A stretch of 34,214 bases of DNA from a virus, in the IMG/VR virus record IMGVR_UViG_3300049893_000056, positions 1 through 34,214 of that record; one strand, written 5' to 3'. This document shows, piece after piece, positions 2,870 through 14,265 of the stretch. Both the position numbers and the translations under genes were made by a program. Each line of letters starts with the position of its first letter. The first letter of the stretch is position 1. A model generated the notes under the pieces. The model was not told the origin of the DNA and made no database searches. It saw nothing but the letters and a program-made list of their open reading frames with translations.

Positions 2870-3439
2870 ATGGCAAACGTAAAAATATCAGGATTAACCT
2901 CAGCAGCAGCAGTAGTTGGTGCAAATGAATTTGAAATTAATGAAGCAGGTACGAGTAAAAAGGTTACCGCTACTCAGATTTCTACATTTGTTAAAGCTGA
3001 CTTACTAGATGATGCTACTGTAAACTTTACAGGTAATCTACAAGAGGGTGGTAGTAATGTTTTAATTGCAACTGATATTGGAACATCTGTACAGGGTTAC
3101 GATGCTAATACAGCTAAACTAAATGTAGATCAATCTTGGTCAGGATCACAACGAGGTACTCCAGTTACTGATAACGATTTATCATTTGATTTATCAGCAT
3201 CTAATAATTTTACATGTACACCAGCAGCTACAGGAGCTCTAACATTTACTAATCACACTGCAGGTCAATCTGGTTATGTTCTTCTTATCAATACAGGTGG
3301 TTATGCTATTACAGCTGCAGCTACTACTAAAGTAGGTTCTTCTTTCTTAACCACAGTTTCAACTGCTGGTACATATTTAATTTCATACTATGACAATGGT
3401 ACTAATGCTTATTGTACTTGTTCAGGAGCTCTTGCTTAA
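2870..3439 (+). CDS. tail fibre/virion structural protein
   Basis: 189 residues. It opens with MANVKISGLTSAAAVVGANEFE, the KISGL(T/P) start common to many aquatic-phage fibre and baseplate proteins. Residues 25-70 continue with EAGTSKKVTATQI. The second half is a Ser/Thr/Gly-rich beta domain with LSFDLSASNNFTCTP, TFTNHTAGQSGYVLLINTGG and YYDNGTNAY, a layout often found as a C-terminal beta domain of phage adhesins. No catalytic motif. It abuts the previous stop, and its own stop overlaps the start of the giant adhesin as TAATG. Confidence 0.6.
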   Translation: MANVKISGLTSAAAVVGANEFEINEAGTSKKVTATQISTFVKADLLDDATVNFTGNLQEGGSNVLIATDIGTSVQGYDANTAKLNVDQSWSGSQRGTPVTDNDLSFDLSASNNFTCTPAATGALTFTNHTAGQSGYVLLINTGGYAITAAATTKVGSSFLTTVSTAGTYLISYYDNGTNAYCTCSGALA

Positions 3440-6363
3440 TGTCCTTACTACAAAATAGTAATGCTATAGAGTCTGGTAGTTATAACATCAATAACTCACT
3501 TCGTTTTAGAAGTAGTGCTAGTGCTAATTTAAGTAGAACACCGTCAGGGACAACAAGACGAATAATGACATTCAGCTTTTGGGTGAAGCGAGGTTCTGTT
3601 TCAGCTGATAACTATATAATAAATGCAACAACAGACGCAACAGCCAGTTCTGTAATATATTTTAATAACTCTAATAGTGGTACGCTTGATGTATTTTTAA
3701 GAGATACATCTACAAACTATTCATTAACTACTACGCAAGTATTTCGTGATCCAAGTGCTTGGTATCATATTGTAGTAGCTATAGATACAACAAAAGCTAC
3801 TGCATCAGACAGAACTAAAGTATATGTAAATGGTTCAGAAGTTACATCTTTTTTAACTGCTAGTTATATACCACAAAACACACAATTAGCTTTTGGTAAT
3901 ACTGTAGCTCATTACATTGGTGGTAATGCAAGTTATTTGGATGGGTATTTAGCAGAATTTTATTATGTATCTGGTAGTCAATTAACACCATCATCATTCG
4001 GTGAAACAGATACTACTACAGGCGTATGGAAACCTAAAGCATACACAGGAACATATGGCAGTAATGGTTTCTACCTTAAATTCTCTGACATAGCTACTAC
4101 ATCAGGTTCTAACGCTGGACTAGGTAAAGATTTCTCTGGTAATGGTAATTACTGGACAACTAACAATATCTCTGTCACATCTGGCACAACTTATGATGCT
4201 ATGACAGATAGCCCTACATTAAGTGAAAGTGCTAGTAATTATGCTGTATTGAGTCCTATTGATTCATCTGGAAAAACTATTGCTGATGCTAATTTAAGAT
4301 TTTCAGGAAGTGCTAATGGAATTGTAAAAGCATCTATTGGTATGTCTAGTGGAAAATGGTATTGTGAAGTAACTAACAATGCAGCCAATGATACATTTTT
4401 AGGAATTTGCACACAATCTACAGCACCTACATCTGCTTATTTAGGAACAAATGCAACAAGTTGGTCATATCGTAGTGGTGGAACTAAATTTACCAATGCT
4501 TCTAGCTCTGCTTATGGAGCATCATATACAACTAATGATATTATTGGTATAGCTTTTGATGCAGATGCAGGTTCACTTACATTTTATAAAAATAATGTAT
4601 CACAAGGTGTAGCATTTTCTGGTTTAGCTGCTAATACTTATGTATTTGCTGCTGGTAACAATGCTGCTACAAATGATTGTTCGTTTAACTTTGGTCAAAG
4701 ACCATTCGCATACACACCACCTACAGGGTTTGTAGGATTAAATACATATAACTTACCTGATAGCACTATTAAAAAAGGTAATAGCTATATGGATATAACA
4801 TTATATACAGGTACTGCTACTTCAACCGCATTTACAAATAATGGGTCTTTTAAACCAGATTTAGTGTGGTTAAAAGGCAGATCTGCTCCTAAAGATCATT
4901 CATTATATGATTCCGTAAGAGGAGTTACAAAAAGATTACGTTCTAGTGCTACGGATGCAGAAAATACAGTAGCTCAAGGTTTAACTGCATTTAATTCTAA
5001 TGGTTTTACATTAGGAACTGATAATAATGACAACGCTACTGTTTCTACATATGTAGCATGGCAATGGCTTGGTTCAACAACAGCAACACCTACATATAAA
5101 TCAGTATCATTTATTCAAGGGGCAACTACTATTGCTGTTCCAATGCCTTCTACTTATGCAACAAATGATTTACTTGTAATGGTATGTGGCTCTGGAGGTA
5201 CTGGATCAACTTGGAGCACACCTAGTGGTTGGAATACTACACCTTCAAATACTAATGGTGGAGCTTGTTTTTGGAAGTATGCTACAGCATCAGAACCTTC
5301 AACTCATTCTACGACTATAACAGGAACCAATGTAGGTTCTGCATCTATTTTTGCATTTTCAGGAGCAGCATTTGATACATCAGGTGTGCCAGGAACAGCA
5401 TCAAGTACTCTAACACCAGCTTCAATTAGTGTGGGTGCTAGTAATAGTACAATATTATATGTGGTACATGACAATGGTGCTTCTAGAAGTTCTAGTACTC
5501 CAACAGGATATACTTCAAGAGTTAGTGATACAGATTCGACAGCTCCTAGTATGCAAATATATAGTTTAGATGGTGTAGCTTCTGGAACTTATACTCCTCC
5601 TACTGTGACTACTAGTGGTACTATGAGAGGTTTCCTTATATCACTTAAACCTAGTTCAGCTGTTCTTAATACAACAGGTTCTATTACATCTACTGTATCT
5701 GCAAATACAACTGCTGGGTTTAGTATTGTAACTTATACAGGAACAGGTGCTAATGCTACAGTAGGACATGGTTTGGGTGTAGCTCCTAAAATGATAATTA
5801 TTAAAGACAGAGTATCAGCAGCACAAAATTGGGCTATATATCATGTTTCTTTAGGCAATACAACTTTTATGCGTCTAAATACTACAGCAGCTCAACAAGC
5901 AGCAAATTCTATTTATTGGCAAAATACTAGTCCAACTTCATCAGTATTTTCTATTGGAACTTATGGTGAAATGAATACAAATACAGAAACATTTGTAGCC
6001 TATTGCTGGGCAGAAATAGCAGGATTTAGTAAGTTTGGTTCTTATACAGGTAATGGTAGTGCTAATGGGCCTTTTGTTTATCTTGGATTTAGACCTAAAT
6101 ATGTAATTATTAAATGTTCAAGTGCTGCAACTTATAATTGGAACACTTATGATTCTGCTCGTGATTTATATAATACTACAGATGATATATTACAAGCCAA
6201 TACAAGTTCTGCTGAATTTACAAATGATACAGCAAACCCATTAGATTTTCTTTCCAATGGATTTAAGATAAGAGGTTCTAATGCTGCTAATAATGGTTCT
6301 GGTGCTACATTTATTTACGCGGCGTTTGCCGAAAACCCTTTCAAAAATTCTTTAGCGAGGTAA
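3439..6363 (+). CDS. large multidomain adhesin (lectin-like LamG + SPRY)
   Basis: 974 residues from the ATG that overlaps the previous stop; an in-frame ATG at 3412 is inside that gene. Residues about 18-200 look like a laminin-G/concanavalin-like sandwich (TFSFWVKRG, WYHIVVAIDTTK, YLDGYLAEFYYV). Residues about 270-430 match a SPRY domain (GKWYCEVTN, FLGICT, IIGIAFDADAGSLTFYKNN). Beyond that come three similar modules with F-P-x-hydrophobic-IK followed by W-x-x-Y-D-x-x-R: PDLVWLKGR near 473, PKMIIIKDR near 784, and PKYVIIKCS near 886, resembling DUF7483. All these folds bind surface glycans or proteins, so this is the main receptor-binding candidate. The tail-fibre-assembly-like gene follows directly. 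Confidence 0.75.
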   Translation: MSLLQNSNAIESGSYNINNSLRFRSSASANLSRTPSGTTRRIMTFSFWVKRGSVSADNYIINATTDATASSVIYFNNSNSGTLDVFLRDTSTNYSLTTTQVFRDPSAWYHIVVAIDTTKATASDRTKVYVNGSEVTSFLTASYIPQNTQLAFGNTVAHYIGGNASYLDGYLAEFYYVSGSQLTPSSFGETDTTTGVWKPKAYTGTYGSNGFYLKFSDIATTSGSNAGLGKDFSGNGNYWTTNNISVTSGTTYDAMTDSPTLSESASNYAVLSPIDSSGKTIADANLRFSGSANGIVKASIGMSSGKWYCEVTNNAANDTFLGICTQSTAPTSAYLGTNATSWSYRSGGTKFTNASSSAYGASYTTNDIIGIAFDADAGSLTFYKNNVSQGVAFSGLAANTYVFAAGNNAATNDCSFNFGQRPFAYTPPTGFVGLNTYNLPDSTIKKGNSYMDITLYTGTATSTAFTNNGSFKPDLVWLKGRSAPKDHSLYDSVRGVTKRLRSSATDAENTVAQGLTAFNSNGFTLGTDNNDNATVSTYVAWQWLGSTTATPTYKSVSFIQGATTIAVPMPSTYATNDLLVMVCGSGGTGSTWSTPSGWNTTPSNTNGGACFWKYATASEPSTHSTTITGTNVGSASIFAFSGAAFDTSGVPGTASSTLTPASISVGASNSTILYVVHDNGASRSSSTPTGYTSRVSDTDSTAPSMQIYSLDGVASGTYTPPTVTTSGTMRGFLISLKPSSAVLNTTGSITSTVSANTTAGFSIVTYTGTGANATVGHGLGVAPKMIIIKDRVSAAQNWAIYHVSLGNTTFMRLNTTAAQQAANSIYWQNTSPTSSVFSIGTYGEMNTNTETFVAYCWAEIAGFSKFGSYTGNGSANGPFVYLGFRPKYVIIKCSSAATYNWNTYDSARDLYNTTDDILQANTSSAEFTNDTANPLDFLSNGFKIRGSNAANNGSGATFIYAAFAENPFKNSLAR

Positions 6364-9978: not shown

Positions 9979-11754
9979 ATGGCAGGAACAGTAGCAGAGT
10001 TTAGACGACTTTTAGATAGAGACGCTTTAGCTAGACAACTAGCAGGTCTATATAATAACTGGTATATCCAAAGAAGTGAAAAAGAAGCAGAATGGAGAGA
10101 ACTCCGTAACTACCTATTCGCTACAGATACTACTAAAACTATTAATTCTAAACTTCCTTGTAAAAATAAAACAACTCTACCTAAGTTAACTCAAATTAGA
10201 GATAACCTACATGCTAACTACATGGATGCTTTATTCCCTAACGATAACTGGCTTAAATGGGAAGGATATAACTTAGAGGCTTCTACTAAATCTAAACGTG
10301 TAGCTATTGAAGCTTACATGAAGAATAAACTTCGTGAGTCTGGTTTTAGAGAAACTATTTCACAATTAGTTTATGACTATATTGACTATGGTAATGTATT
10401 TGCAGATGTTATCTATGAAAATAATGTACATACTGATCCTATCTCGAAAGAAGAAATAACTAACTATAGAGGTCCTAAATTACAACGTATATCACCAATG
10501 GATATTACGTTTAATCCTGTAGCTAAATCGTTTAAAGATTCTCCTAAGTTTACACGATATGTTAAATCAGTTGGAGAACTTAAAAAAGATTTAATCTATA
10601 GACCAGACCTTGCTTATGATAAAGCTGCTTTTGAACGTGCTATTAATGTTCGTAAACACATTACTAACTTTAGACTTGAAGATGTACATAAAGCAGAAGG
10701 ATTCTTAATAGATGGTTTTGGATCTCTAAAAGAATACTATCAATCTAATCTAGTTGAGATCTTAGAGTTTGAAGGTGATATTCATAATGCTGCTACAGAT
10801 GAACTTCAAGAACGTAGAATTATTACTATCATTGATAGATCTTATATTATTCGCAACATTGAGAATCCATCATGGTTTGGTAAAGATTCAAAAGAACATG
10901 TATGTTGGAGAGCTCGTCCAGATAACCTCTATGGTATGGGACCATTAGATAATTTAGTAGGTCTACAATATCGTTTAGATCATCTTGAGAATATTAAAGC
11001 TGATGCTATGGATCTTACTATTCATCCACCTATTGCTGTTAAAGGTGATGTAGAACCATTTACTTGGGGTCCAGAAGAAACAATCCATATTCCTGAAGAT
11101 GGTTCAGTAGAATTACTACCACCTAACCCAGCAGCTTTCCAAGTTAATACTGAGATTGCAGCCCTTCTTCAAATTATGGAAGAGATGGCTGGAGCTCCTA
11201 AAGAAGCTATGGGCTTTAGAACTCCAGGTGAAAAAACAGCTTTTGAAGTACAACAACTACAAAATGCAGCTAGTCGAATCTTCCAAAACAAGATCAATAA
11301 GTTTGAGATTGAGTTTATGGAACCTTTACTCAATACTATGTTAGAGGTTGCTAAACGTAATATGGATTCAGCTGAACTAGCTAGAGTACTTGATGATGAT
11401 GTAGGTATTACAGACTTTATCTCAGTTACAAAAGAAGATATTACAGCTAAAGGTAAGTTAAGACCTATTGGTGCTAGACACTATGCAGCTAGAGCTCAAC
11501 TTATCCAAAATATGCTAGGAGTATTTAATAGTCCTATGGGTCAAATGATTGCCCCTCATATATCAGCTAAACGCTTAGCACAGATGCTTGAAGAGTATAT
11601 GGGCTTTGAACAATATGACTTTATTCAAGATAATGCTGCTTTATTTGAACAAGCTGAGACTGCTAAACTTGCTCAACAAGTTCAACAAACTATTGCAATA
11701 CAGCAAAATACACCTATAGAAGAGTCTATGATAGACGCTACTATGGGTAAATAA
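9979..11754 (+). CDS. portal (head-tail connector) protein
   Basis: 591 residues, the usual size for a podovirus portal. The start is helical (EFRRLLDRDALARQLAGLYNNW cut short here), and conserved patches include PMDITFNP, VCWRARPDNLYGMGPLDNL (near 311-329) and EMAGAPKEAMGFRTPGEKTA (near 402-421), typical of T7-type head-tail connectors. It forms the dodecameric ring through which DNA enters and leaves. It sits between the large terminase and the scaffold, as expected. The start has AAGGA about seven bases upstream. Confidence 0.9.
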   Translation: MAGTVAEFRRLLDRDALARQLAGLYNNWYIQRSEKEAEWRELRNYLFATDTTKTINSKLPCKNKTTLPKLTQIRDNLHANYMDALFPNDNWLKWEGYNLEASTKSKRVAIEAYMKNKLRESGFRETISQLVYDYIDYGNVFADVIYENNVHTDPISKEEITNYRGPKLQRISPMDITFNPVAKSFKDSPKFTRYVKSVGELKKDLIYRPDLAYDKAAFERAINVRKHITNFRLEDVHKAEGFLIDGFGSLKEYYQSNLVEILEFEGDIHNAATDELQERRIITIIDRSYIIRNIENPSWFGKDSKEHVCWRARPDNLYGMGPLDNLVGLQYRLDHLENIKADAMDLTIHPPIAVKGDVEPFTWGPEETIHIPEDGSVELLPPNPAAFQVNTEIAALLQIMEEMAGAPKEAMGFRTPGEKTAFEVQQLQNAASRIFQNKINKFEIEFMEPLLNTMLEVAKRNMDSAELARVLDDDVGITDFISVTKEDITAKGKLRPIGARHYAARAQLIQNMLGVFNSPMGQMIAPHISAKRLAQMLEEYMGFEQYDFIQDNAALFEQAETAKLAQQVQQTIAIQQNTPIEESMIDATMGK

Positions 11755-11757
11755 AGC

Positions 11758-11786
11758 TTGACTTTTAAGAGAATCTATGGTATAAT
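11758..11786 (+). promoter_or_regulatory. internal sigma70-type promoter before scaffold/capsid genes
   Basis: TTGACT at 11758-11763 and TATAAT at 11781-11786 are 17 bases apart, with TGG before the -10 (extended -10). It starts three bases after the portal stop. The expected transcription start, 6-7 bases past the -10, falls on or beside the ATG at 11793 of the next gene, so that gene's message would be almost leaderless. The promoter would boost the scaffold, capsid and head genes, which end at the terminator at 14245. Confidence 0.75.
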
Positions 11787-11792
11787 TATCGT

Positions 11793-12020
11793 ATGGATTT
11801 AAAATCTGAAAAGGGTAAAGCCTTATCAAAAACTGAAGTTTTAAAAGAAATAAGAGAATACTTACAAGAACAGATTGATTTGTCTAGACGTAAGTGTATA
11901 GATGAAGAAAATTTCACTCTACCAAGCTGGTCTGAGTTTCAAGCTTATCAGCTAGGTATTCAAAAAGCTCTTTCTAAACTTCAAACATTAATACCTGACC
12001 AAGGAGAAACTAGTGTCTGA
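11793..12020 (+). CDS. small helical protein of unknown function
   Basis: 75 residues, mostly charged helix (KTEVLKEIREYLQEQIDLSRR at the start, shortened here), with a SWSEFQAYQLGIQKALSKL segment near 46-64. I do not recognise the family. Proteins of this sort between portal and scaffold may be head-assembly helpers. No Shine-Dalgarno is visible upstream of ATG, and the predicted transcript start of the promoter at 11758 coincides with the ATG, so translation may be leaderless. Its last 8 bases overlap the scaffold start. Confidence 0.6.
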   Translation: MDLKSEKGKALSKTEVLKEIREYLQEQIDLSRRKCIDEENFTLPSWSEFQAYQLGIQKALSKLQTLIPDQGETSV

Positions 12021-12726
12021 AGAAAATAAACTAAACATTGATCTAAGTACCAACACGGATCAAAAACAAGATAGCCAAAAACCTGCGTTCCAGATTCCGA
12101 CAGAAGCTGCAGAACTTGTAGGAGATGGTAAGAAGTATCAATCAGTAGAAGATGCGTTAAAATCAGTACCTCATGCACAAAAGCATATTCAAACTCTTGA
12201 GTCTGAATTAGCTGCTGCCCGTGAAGAACTAGCTAAACGTAGAACAGCTGAAGAACTTCTAGATGAAATTAAGTCTGGCATTCAACCTAAGAACGACATT
12301 CCTAGCGCTGAAATTAGTCAAGATAAATTGCTCGAAGTAGTTAATCAAACTCTCGAAGCTAAAGAAAGACAAAGAACTGCTCAACAAAATGCTAGATCAG
12401 TAGCTGAAAAGTTTACTGAGAAGTATGGCGATAAAGCAGAAGAAATGTATAAGACCTTAGCTAGAGAAAGTGGATTATCTGAACAACAACTAAACGAATT
12501 ATCAGCAAGATCTCCTGGAGCTGTTATTAAGTTGGCTGGTTTTGTTACCACTCAACCTAACATTCCTAGTAGACCTTCAAGTACTGTTAACACAGAATCT
12601 TTAAAAGCTAATTCTAACCCTGCTGAGTTATCAGCTAGAGTTAAGCAAGGAGCTACTACTAAAGATTTAGTTAATGCTTGGAAAATTGCTGGTGAAAAAG
12701 TAAAACAACAAAACTTAACTAATTAA
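12013..12726 (+). CDS. capsid scaffolding protein
   Basis: 237 residues, acidic and Gln/Glu/Lys-rich with no hydrophobic core. A predicted coiled coil lies near 54-85 (HIQTLESELAAAREELAKRR), with further helical parts to 150 and a Ser/Thr/Pro-rich linker near 175-200. The C-terminal helix is basic (WKIAGEKVKQQ), as in scaffolds that bind capsid protein through a short basic tail. The start is GTG, supported by AAGGAG at 12001-12006, six bases upstream. The position directly before the capsid gene is classic for the role. Confidence 0.75.
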   Translation: MSEENKLNIDLSTNTDQKQDSQKPAFQIPTEAAELVGDGKKYQSVEDALKSVPHAQKHIQTLESELAAAREELAKRRTAEELLDEIKSGIQPKNDIPSAEISQDKLLEVVNQTLEAKERQRTAQQNARSVAEKFTEKYGDKAEEMYKTLARESGLSEQQLNELSARSPGAVIKLAGFVTTQPNIPSRPSSTVNTESLKANSNPAELSARVKQGATTKDLVNAWKIAGEKVKQQNLTN

Positions 12727-12735
12727 GGATAAATT

Positions 12736-13719
12736 ATGTCACAATTAACTAGCAATACTACCTCATTTATTGAGGCTCAACAGTATTCTCAGTTCATCGT
12801 TGAAAATTTAAAAGACTTCTTATTGCCAGAAGGTTTATGGAGAGATGTGTCTGACTTCGGTGCAGGTACAACTCTTAACATTAAAACTGTTGGTACAGTC
12901 ACAATTCAAGATGGTCAAGAGGATACACCTTTAAACTTTAACCCAATCGACACAGGTACTATCACACTTTCTATCACTGATTACATTGGTGATGCTTGGA
13001 AAGTTAGTGATGAACTCCGTGAAGATGGTGCTCAAGTAGAAGCTTTAATGTCAATGCGTGCATTAGAGTCAACACGTGCTCTTGGTGAATACCATGAATC
13101 ACGTTTACTATCAGTAGCTAACGCTGCTCAAACTAACGCTAACGTAAACTTAGTTAACGGCCGTCCACATCGTTGGGTAGCTGGTGGTGCAGGAGCTACT
13201 AATCGTATCATGACATTAGCAGACTTTGTTGCTATGAAATTGGCTTTTGATAAAGCTAAAGTTCCAGCAGCTGGTCGTATCGCAATCGTAGATCCGATTG
13301 TTGAAGCTTCATTAAATAGCATTACAAACTTAGTTTCAGTATCTAACAACCCAATGTTCGAAGGTATTGTAACAGAAGGTTTCGCACGAGATCATAAGTT
13401 TGTTAAGAATATTTTTGGTTTCGACATCTGGACATCTAACTATCTACCTGTTAAGACAGCTACAGAAGTTCTCAATGCTTCTTCATATGGCTTAGCAAAT
13501 GATACAGCAGAAATTGGTGACGTTGCAAACGTATTTATGTCAGTTGCTGACGACAATACTAAGCCAATTATGCATGCATGGAGACGTGCTCCTAAAACAG
13601 AAGGTTGGAGAGACAGCGAAGAACGTGCTGACAAATTCCAAGTAACTTCTCGTTTTGGATTCGGTGCCCAACGTGTTGATACACTTGGTGTTATTTTAAC
13701 ATCTGGTTCTACATACTAA
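12736..13719 (+). CDS. major capsid protein
   Basis: 327 residues, beginning SQLTSNTTSFIEAQQYSQFI with a helical N-arm, then beta-rich stretches (TTLNIKTVGTVTIQDGQ, ITLSITDYIGDAWKVSDEL) and a central helix with MRALESTRALGEYHESRL near 99-116. This order fits the HK97-fold capsid proteins of aquatic podoviruses. It is placed after portal and scaffold, and AAGGA lies about seven bases before ATG. Codons such as CGT and GGT are more frequent here than in the neighbouring genes, which fits a very highly expressed protein. No catalytic motif is expected. Confidence 0.88.
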   Translation: MSQLTSNTTSFIEAQQYSQFIVENLKDFLLPEGLWRDVSDFGAGTTLNIKTVGTVTIQDGQEDTPLNFNPIDTGTITLSITDYIGDAWKVSDELREDGAQVEALMSMRALESTRALGEYHESRLLSVANAAQTNANVNLVNGRPHRWVAGGAGATNRIMTLADFVAMKLAFDKAKVPAAGRIAIVDPIVEASLNSITNLVSVSNNPMFEGIVTEGFARDHKFVKNIFGFDIWTSNYLPVKTATEVLNASSYGLANDTAEIGDVANVFMSVADDNTKPIMHAWRRAPKTEGWRDSEERADKFQVTSRFGFGAQRVDTLGVILTSGSTY

Positions 13720-13730
13720 GGAGATATAAC

Positions 13731-14219
13731 ATGGGTTTCGAAATTGATGCAAAACGTGGCGTAGCCGCAAGTTATGGTGTTAGAACCACAAACGGTAAGT
13801 TTGGTGGTCAACAATCAACAAAAAACGGTATTGTTAAATCTGCTGTTTGGGATTTCAAGTATAACGATTTACCATCATATGGTTCAAATGGTTTACAATT
13901 CTCACTTCCAGCAAATACAACTATCGTTTCAGCTAAGTTATATGTTGATGTAGCATTTACTTCTACATCTACAACTACTGACTTAGACGTTGGTTTGTAT
14001 ACATCTGCAGGTTCAGCAATTGATGCTGATGGCTTAATTACTGTTTCTGAGGCAACTCAAACAGCAATTGGTACTGCAGGTAATGTAATTACTGGTGCAG
14101 GTGCTTTAATTGGTAAAACAATTGGTGCTTCTGCTGGTGAACTCGTTGTAACACCATCTGTAGCAGACTTAACAGCAGGCCAAGGCCGTATTGTTGTTGA
14201 GTATGTTTACGACAAGTAA
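13731..14219 (+). CDS. head decoration/structural protein
   Basis: 162 residues, beta-rich and rich in Gly, Ala, Thr and Val. Segments such as YGSNGLQFSLPANTTIVSAK and LYVDVAFTSTSTTTDLDVGLY suggest a jelly-roll type sandwich. It has an excellent ribosome site (AAGGAG, 13718-13723, spacing 7) and directly follows the capsid gene, so it is probably an abundant capsid-associated protein. It is the last gene before a strong intrinsic terminator, closing the head transcription unit that starts at 11758. Its precise function is not recognised. Confidence 0.65.
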   Translation: MGFEIDAKRGVAASYGVRTTNGKFGGQQSTKNGIVKSAVWDFKYNDLPSYGSNGLQFSLPANTTIVSAKLYVDVAFTSTSTTTDLDVGLYTSAGSAIDADGLITVSEATQTAIGTAGNVITGAGALIGKTIGASAGELVVTPSVADLTAGQGRIVVEYVYDK

Positions 14220-14244
14220 TACCTAAGATGAAGGGCCTTCTATT

Positions 14245-14265
14245 GAGAGGGCCCCTCTCTTTTTT
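14245..14265 (+). terminator. intrinsic terminator after head genes
   Basis: GAGAGG, a three-base GCC loop and CCTCTC form a perfect six-base stem (14245-14259), followed at once by six T (14260-14265). An alternative stem pairs GGGCC at 14233-14237 with GGCCC at 14250-14254. This is the only GC-rich hairpin with a U tract noticed in the window. It sits 26 bases past the stop of the head protein and 13 bases before the next ATG, so it should end most head-unit transcripts or reduce read-through into the tail genes. Confidence 0.85.

Follow-up and report, generated by a model that had tools for sequence, protein, structure and literature searches.

A conserved sigma70-type promoter set close to the start codon of a small, probably leaderless gene in the head module of a group of Zobellviridae phages

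Genes and signals of the head unit

This study analysed the window, a virus contig of 34,214 bases (IMG/VR record IMGVR_UViG_3300049893_000056) that is perhaps incomplete. The portal, terminase, capsid, and tail genes of the window matched phage families, and its head module was homologous to and syntenic with those of Zobellviridae members, on which basis the window was assigned to this family as kin of the Methylophilales phages MEP401 and MEP402. These two phages and the Manatee Spring genome MW202697 were its closest named kin (69-70% identity in the portal and 73-81% in the capsid protein); MEP401, classed in the Zobellviridae like MEP402, shared 70% of the portal and 73% of the capsid residues. 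The OM43 strain FZCC0133 with MEP401 and MEP402 forms a cultured pair with the same layout as the window. Elsewhere in the window, the 983-residue frame of a tail-fibre or virion protein (3412-6363) was listed with a TTG start and a 28-base overlap with the end of the preceding gene.

The portal (head-tail adaptor) gene occupies positions 9979-11754 on the plus strand, as do all features of the head unit described here, and encodes 591 residues (phrog_332, E 7.6e-95). Its TAA stop (11752-11754) is followed by AGC, the -35 hexamer TTGACT (11758-11763), a 17-nt spacer, the -10 hexamer TATAAT (11781-11786), the six bases TATCGT, and the ATG (11793-11795) of a small gene. Direct reading thus bore out the initial annotation, which had placed TTGACT-N17-TATAAT three bases past the portal stop. 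The site (11758-11786) matches 11 of the 12 consensus bases, and a TG (11778-11779) stands one base before the -10, giving an extended -10 of TGG-TATAAT (11778-11786). RNA synthesis by host-type polymerase usually starts approximately seven bases past the -10, with a purine after a pyrimidine favoured; the predicted transcription start is therefore position 11793, the A of the ATG, which lies after six bases and has a T at -1.

We compared the site with 200 dinucleotide shuffles of the whole window. Four sites with at least 11 of 12 matches were observed, against 2.2 by chance, and the site under study was the only 11/12 match between positions 5000 and 24000; sites that also had a spacer of 17 and the TG were expected 0.045 times. 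The hexamer score alone is unremarkable, and what stands out is the TG, the place, and the conservation. A repeat spread over the window was considered for the promoter place and rejected, as the 20 largest repeat families (of at least 60) included none there.

The small gene (11793-12020) encodes 75 residues and is predicted to be leaderless. Residues 16-68 matched PHROG 8956 (E 6e-5); the MEP401 protein is 65% identical to that of the window, yet was missed by the same profile at E 0.001. The predicted structure is a two-helix hairpin (two main helices, mean pLDDT 86). A BFVD structure search returned no match at E 0.001, the best being an unnamed 82-residue protein at 0.022, and bacterial genomes yielded no match to the small protein. 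In most ungapped pairs (pairs with indels being left out), dN was 0.18 to 0.38 and dS exceeded 0.8. On the basis of the modelled fold and the place of the gene, our guess is that the product may be a head-assembly helper. A start further downstream was rejected, for the 75 residues hold no second methionine and the N-terminus is conserved from residue 3.

Three genes follow. The scaffold-like gene (12013-12726, 237 residues; phrog_7931, E 1.8e-41) begins with a GTG lying within the last codons of the small gene, has the Shine-Dalgarno (SD) sequence AAGGAG at 12001-12006, and is syntenic with a gene annotated as scaffold in MEP401 and MEP402. The major capsid protein gene (12736-13719, 327 residues; phrog_267, E 2.6e-38; PF25209) has AAGGA at 12725-12729. 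The fourth and last gene (13731-14219, 162 residues) has AAGGAG at 13718-13723 and no PHROG match, and its position is conserved.

Behind the fourth gene lie hairpins resembling an intrinsic terminator, with a T-run (14233-14265); one stem spans 14233-14254, and an alternative stem (14245-14259) is followed by TTTTTT. A GC-rich hairpin was found at this place in 61 of 62 distinct relatives, compared with 3.8% of random 110-nt windows, which supports the earlier suggestion that a terminator at 14245 would close the head unit. A T-run (at least five T in eight bases) followed the hairpin in 22 of the 62 distinct sequences, and termination may be partial in the 40 with a hairpin and no clean T-run. 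At the same place in six other Zobellviridae, a hairpin and T-run occurred in five, and PA11 had none.

Conservation of the promoter and its distance from the ATG

The relatives comprised the best 80 of 580 capsid relatives, the best 80 of 200 small-protein relatives (with contigs partly shared), three named records, and the window; picked by similarity to the capsid and small protein of the window, the sample leans to near kin. Two loci from the window itself (L084 and L085) and other Zobellviridae (L086-L091) were excluded by design, and 17 loci were dropped: 6 with a match beginning past residue 3, 8 without a small-gene match, and 3 with less than 80 nt upstream. The counts rest on the 144 starts kept, 71 of them distinct over -80 to +60.

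The results revealed that TTGAC[AT]-N17-TATA[AC]T adjoins the small gene in 68 of the 71 distinct upstream sequences, each hexamer being present in 68. All 68 promoter-bearing sequences have a spacer of exactly 17, and 66 have the TG. The distance from the -10 to the ATG is 6 nt in 56 of them, 7 in seven, and 12 in two, with single cases of 5, 8, and 9, so that 66 distinct sequences fall between 5 and 9 nt; 64 of the 68 have a T directly before the ATG. At 12 nt (L060 and L070) and 9 nt (L083), the distance would leave a leader of a few bases. When the loci were clustered at 80% gene identity, the promoter was present in 24 of 27 clusters, with a distance of 6 in 18 and a T before the ATG in 23 of these 24. 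Pairwise identity over the cluster representatives was 95% in the hexamers and 45% in the inner spacer. The gap from the portal stop to the ATG is variable, mostly 31-62 nt, whereas the distance from the -10 to the ATG is nearly constant, and the promoter is therefore tied to the ATG. By comparison, TATAMT lay 4-9 nt before none of 519 starts of the portal, capsid, fourth, and fifth genes at the same loci (near-copies counted).

The full promoter is absent from three loci, and it is thus not essential to the gene order. L063 is rearranged, with the portal 634 nt off, a -10 kept, and a weak -35. L076 and L142 are wholly promoterless before the small gene and have an SD sequence instead, AAGGAG and AAGGA, respectively, in the end of the portal gene.

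We further examined the translation signals. The statement of the initial annotation that no SD sequence precedes the ATG at 11793 was confirmed for the strict 5-mer in the window, and among the 71 distinct sequences this 5-mer occurred in three, namely L076, L142, and L050, where it lies inside the promoter. SD matches of at least four bases within 20 nt preceded 9 of 59 distinct small-gene starts; as read from the sequences listed, six of these nine were four-base matches to the GTGA of the extended -10. At the other genes, such matches preceded 45 of 46 distinct portal starts, 61 of 61 capsid starts, 57 of 57 fourth-gene starts, and 59 of 60 scaffold starts, the scaffold start being chosen for the best SD, which favours its count. 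The start codon of the small gene is ATG in 59 of 59 distinct starts, as located by a finder that sought an ATG near the aligned start and dropped no locus for want of one; the 60 distinct scaffold starts comprise 39 ATG, 17 GTG, and 4 TTG. The predicted RNA is not unusually open at its 5' end, the mean folding energy there being -3.4 kcal/mol against -3.5 kcal/mol for random 35-mers from the same loci.

Outside this group, ten other Zobellviridae (PA11, CW02, CVT22, Vibrio 1.264, T5S1_444551, Pecta, ICP2, ICBM1, T5S1_653015, and KZY1) have the small gene directly at the portal stop or overlapping it; the start lies from 35 nt upstream to 10 nt downstream of that stop, with an SD-like site or a stop-start overlap. 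PA11, CVT22, CW02, and others carry, like the window, a gene of the PHROG 8956 family between portal and scaffold; unlike in the window, that gene abuts or overlaps the portal stop, uses an SD or overlap, and leaves no room for a promoter in the gap. A similarly sized gene, possibly related, stands at this place in Vibrio 1.139.A, and a motif search of the unannotated SIO1 record yielded no match. In phage T5S1-k141_444551, tRNA-Gly and tRNA-Arg genes (L090:6106-6263) lie in the gap that separates the small gene from scaffold; several other family members have AT-rich non-coding DNA there.

A portal tree of 39 rows, built by a quick method with 12 of 36 inner branches starred, separated the 29-row group of the window from the ten others with full support. 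The promoter was present in 26 of the 29 rows and in none of the 10 outgroup rows, and L063, L076, and L142 were scattered over the tree, away from each other. This distribution fits one gain and later losses, the direction of change being inferred from the outgroup. As judged from these sequences, a branch of water-living phages has retained the promoter-gene layout.

The same promoter at other genes

In the window, a sigma70-like site with TG, TTGACA-N17-TATACT (73-101), precedes the first late gene (phrog_8035); at L211 and L181, apparently the same gene has its -10 only 6-8 nt from the ATG. On the minus strand, at 31668-31620, a promoter of the same kind (31668-31640) precedes the DUF3310 gene with a 20-nt leader containing AAGGAG. 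The motif is therefore usable with and without leaders, and leaderlessness is not forced by it. At the DUF3310 gene of MEP401 and MEP402 (L219 and L222), the -10 stands 6 nt from the ATG in place of the SD leader of the window, and so the leaderless state would shift between relatives there too. TTGACW-N16-18-TATAMT occurred 58 times in 15 related records, against 4 occurrences of the backwards pattern, and most of these records held two to six per genome; the excess over the backwards pattern indicates that these phages have a genuine class of such promoters.

No match to the exact sequence was found in a scan of viral contigs. The pattern TTGACTTTT-N11-TGnTATAAT-N6-ATG was found at no fewer than 119 loci, near-copies being kept. 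Among the matches listed, the ATG begins a frame taken to be a gene at 98 of 120 sites, compared with 18% of all ATGs at the same loci opening at least 60 residues; a crude sorting rule that misplaced a few genes divided these 98 into 26 small genes, 6 DUF3310-like genes, and 66 others, mostly of at least 60 residues. The other genes, again among the matches listed, included DNA polymerase, primase, and UvsY families. A -10 six bases before the ATG was seen at DNA polymerase, primase, and UvsY-like genes at L280:857-894, L243:5518-5555, and L301:400-437. Such sites suggest that T4-like aquatic phages, too, use leaderless starts. When run on bacterial genomes, the same scan gave 29 of 81 among the matches listed, against a background of 25%, many in Saccharibacteria. 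We tentatively raise the idea, which we hold to be somewhat doubtful, that phages of aquatic bacteria repeatedly use a strong host-type promoter positioned for transcription to begin at the AUG, beyond this one gene. A cistron so arranged could be translated mainly from its own promoter, independently of SD-led initiation.

Proposed expression of the head unit and comparison with known systems

We consider it probable, on sequence evidence, that an internal sigma70-type promoter starts the head unit, the first cistron being leaderless, the others SD-led, and the unit closing at the hairpin. A host-type, extended -10 promoter in the gap between the portal and small genes would give a separate head transcript whose 5' end lies at, or within approximately two bases of, the AUG. 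The small gene would be translated as a leaderless cistron, and the scaffold, capsid, and fourth genes from ordinary SD sites on the same RNA, which would end behind the fourth gene. The promoter motif and its conservation, its constant distance from the ATG, the lack of an SD, and the hairpin can be read directly in the sequences; from these we infer the start point, the leaderless translation, and the gating and dosage effect described below. A 70S ribosome binds an AUG at the end of an RNA, and other start codons serve poorly there in E. coli, according to a passage in PMC9031893. The near-leaderless message proposed in the initial annotation agrees with the spacing, the exclusive use of ATG, the missing SD, and the SD sites in two promoterless loci. 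That annotation had offered either a leaderless small gene or a promoter serving scaffold and capsid; each option is supported, whereas their mutual exclusion is not, since both would apply at once.

Because the small gene has no SD, it would be translated poorly from portal read-through RNA and made well only from the head promoter. Its supply would consequently be tied to scaffold and capsid rather than to the portal. By analogy with T7, the head promoter might also allow capsid to be made in excess.

The reader of the promoter would most simply be host sigma70. The near-consensus hexamers, 17 nt apart where 16-18 nt are expected, and the TG one base before the -10 are those of a sigma70-type extended -10 promoter. 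Sigma70_r2 was found in 0 of 10 records (controls matched in 10 of 14), and Sigma70_r4 reached only a weak match below cut-off in 1 of the 10 (E 7e-5); a passage in PMC9960094 describes Zobellviridae as having no RNA polymerase of their own, and host sigma70 is the simplest reader for these reasons. The single-subunit polymerase domain PF00940 matched 0 of 10 records, and its control matched nowhere either. The weak region-4-like match lies at G006:10286-10375 (L470), in a 165-residue frame close behind a strong promoter. That a phage-modified polymerase or a phage sigma factor reads the site, as in phiEco32, would suit the conservation beyond the sigma70 consensus of a C before the -35, TTT after it, and a T at spacer position 13, and the same passage of PMC9960094, which describes the family as having no polymerase of its own, points to sigma changes in phiEco32. 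Nevertheless, the two hexamers, the 17-nt spacer, and the TG are textbook sigma70 features, and the sigma-domain searches also count against this reading, which we regard as quite improbable.

The promoter might alternatively serve scaffold and capsid only, with the small gene translated by reinitiation after the portal and the 6-nt spacing a product of genome compaction. Scaffold and capsid each carry a strong SD on the shared RNA, and the position of the small gene in the ten other Zobellviridae suits coupling or SD initiation. Compaction alone, however, would not fix the -10 at 6 nt from the ATG while the gap to the portal stop varies, and the absence of SD sites solely from promoter-bearing loci and the exclusive use of ATG also count against this account, which we judge unlikely. 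A functionless chance match in AT-rich DNA, for which the 2.2 sites per shuffled window might speak, is refuted as far as sequence can do so by conservation at one position in 24 of 27 clusters while the spacer varies freely, and we give it hardly any weight.

The arrangement offers a conserved example, readily open to test, of probable leaderless initiation within an operon of phage structural genes, in which translation of one gene should hinge on which promoter made the RNA. If true, it would provide a promoter-based annotation rule for small phage genes without SD sites. A literature search on leaderless phage head genes returned nothing comparable among the matches listed. The main text of the MEP401 paper (PMC10580990) does not mention a promoter, terminator, or leaderless gene, nor does PMC9960094, and in PMC9004378 the word 'leaderless' occurs in a reference title only.

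Several known systems share parts of this arrangement. The head promoters of T7 are served by its own single-subunit polymerase. Promoters phi9 and phi10 precede scaffold (gene 9) and capsid (gene 10), and Tphi follows gene 10A, as outlined in part of PMC6068830; T7 thus resembles the window in having local promoters ahead of its scaffold and capsid genes and in placing a terminator after capsid. The window differs in its host-type promoter and predicted leaderless first cistron, in a family described in a passage of PMC9960094 as having no RNA polymerase of its own. Its head unit also has one extra gene on each side.

The cI gene of the temperate phage lambda encodes the repressor. Its RNA is leaderless according to a passage in PMC9031893 and, like that predicted for the small gene, is read from a 5'-end AUG without an SD; the small gene differs as the first cistron of a structural operon. 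In Deinococcus-Thermus, leaderless RNA arises from a -10 placed a few bases before the start codon, a pattern described in PMC12340547 and predicted for the window as well. A lone -10 can serve there, and the pattern is common genome-wide, whereas here a full -35, TG, and -10 stand at selected phage promoters. Phage transcripts are often leaderless, as remarked in the AR9 paper (PMC5312081). The head unit would be a variant of these known kinds, joining the phi9/phi10-Tphi logic of T7 with that of leaderless genes.
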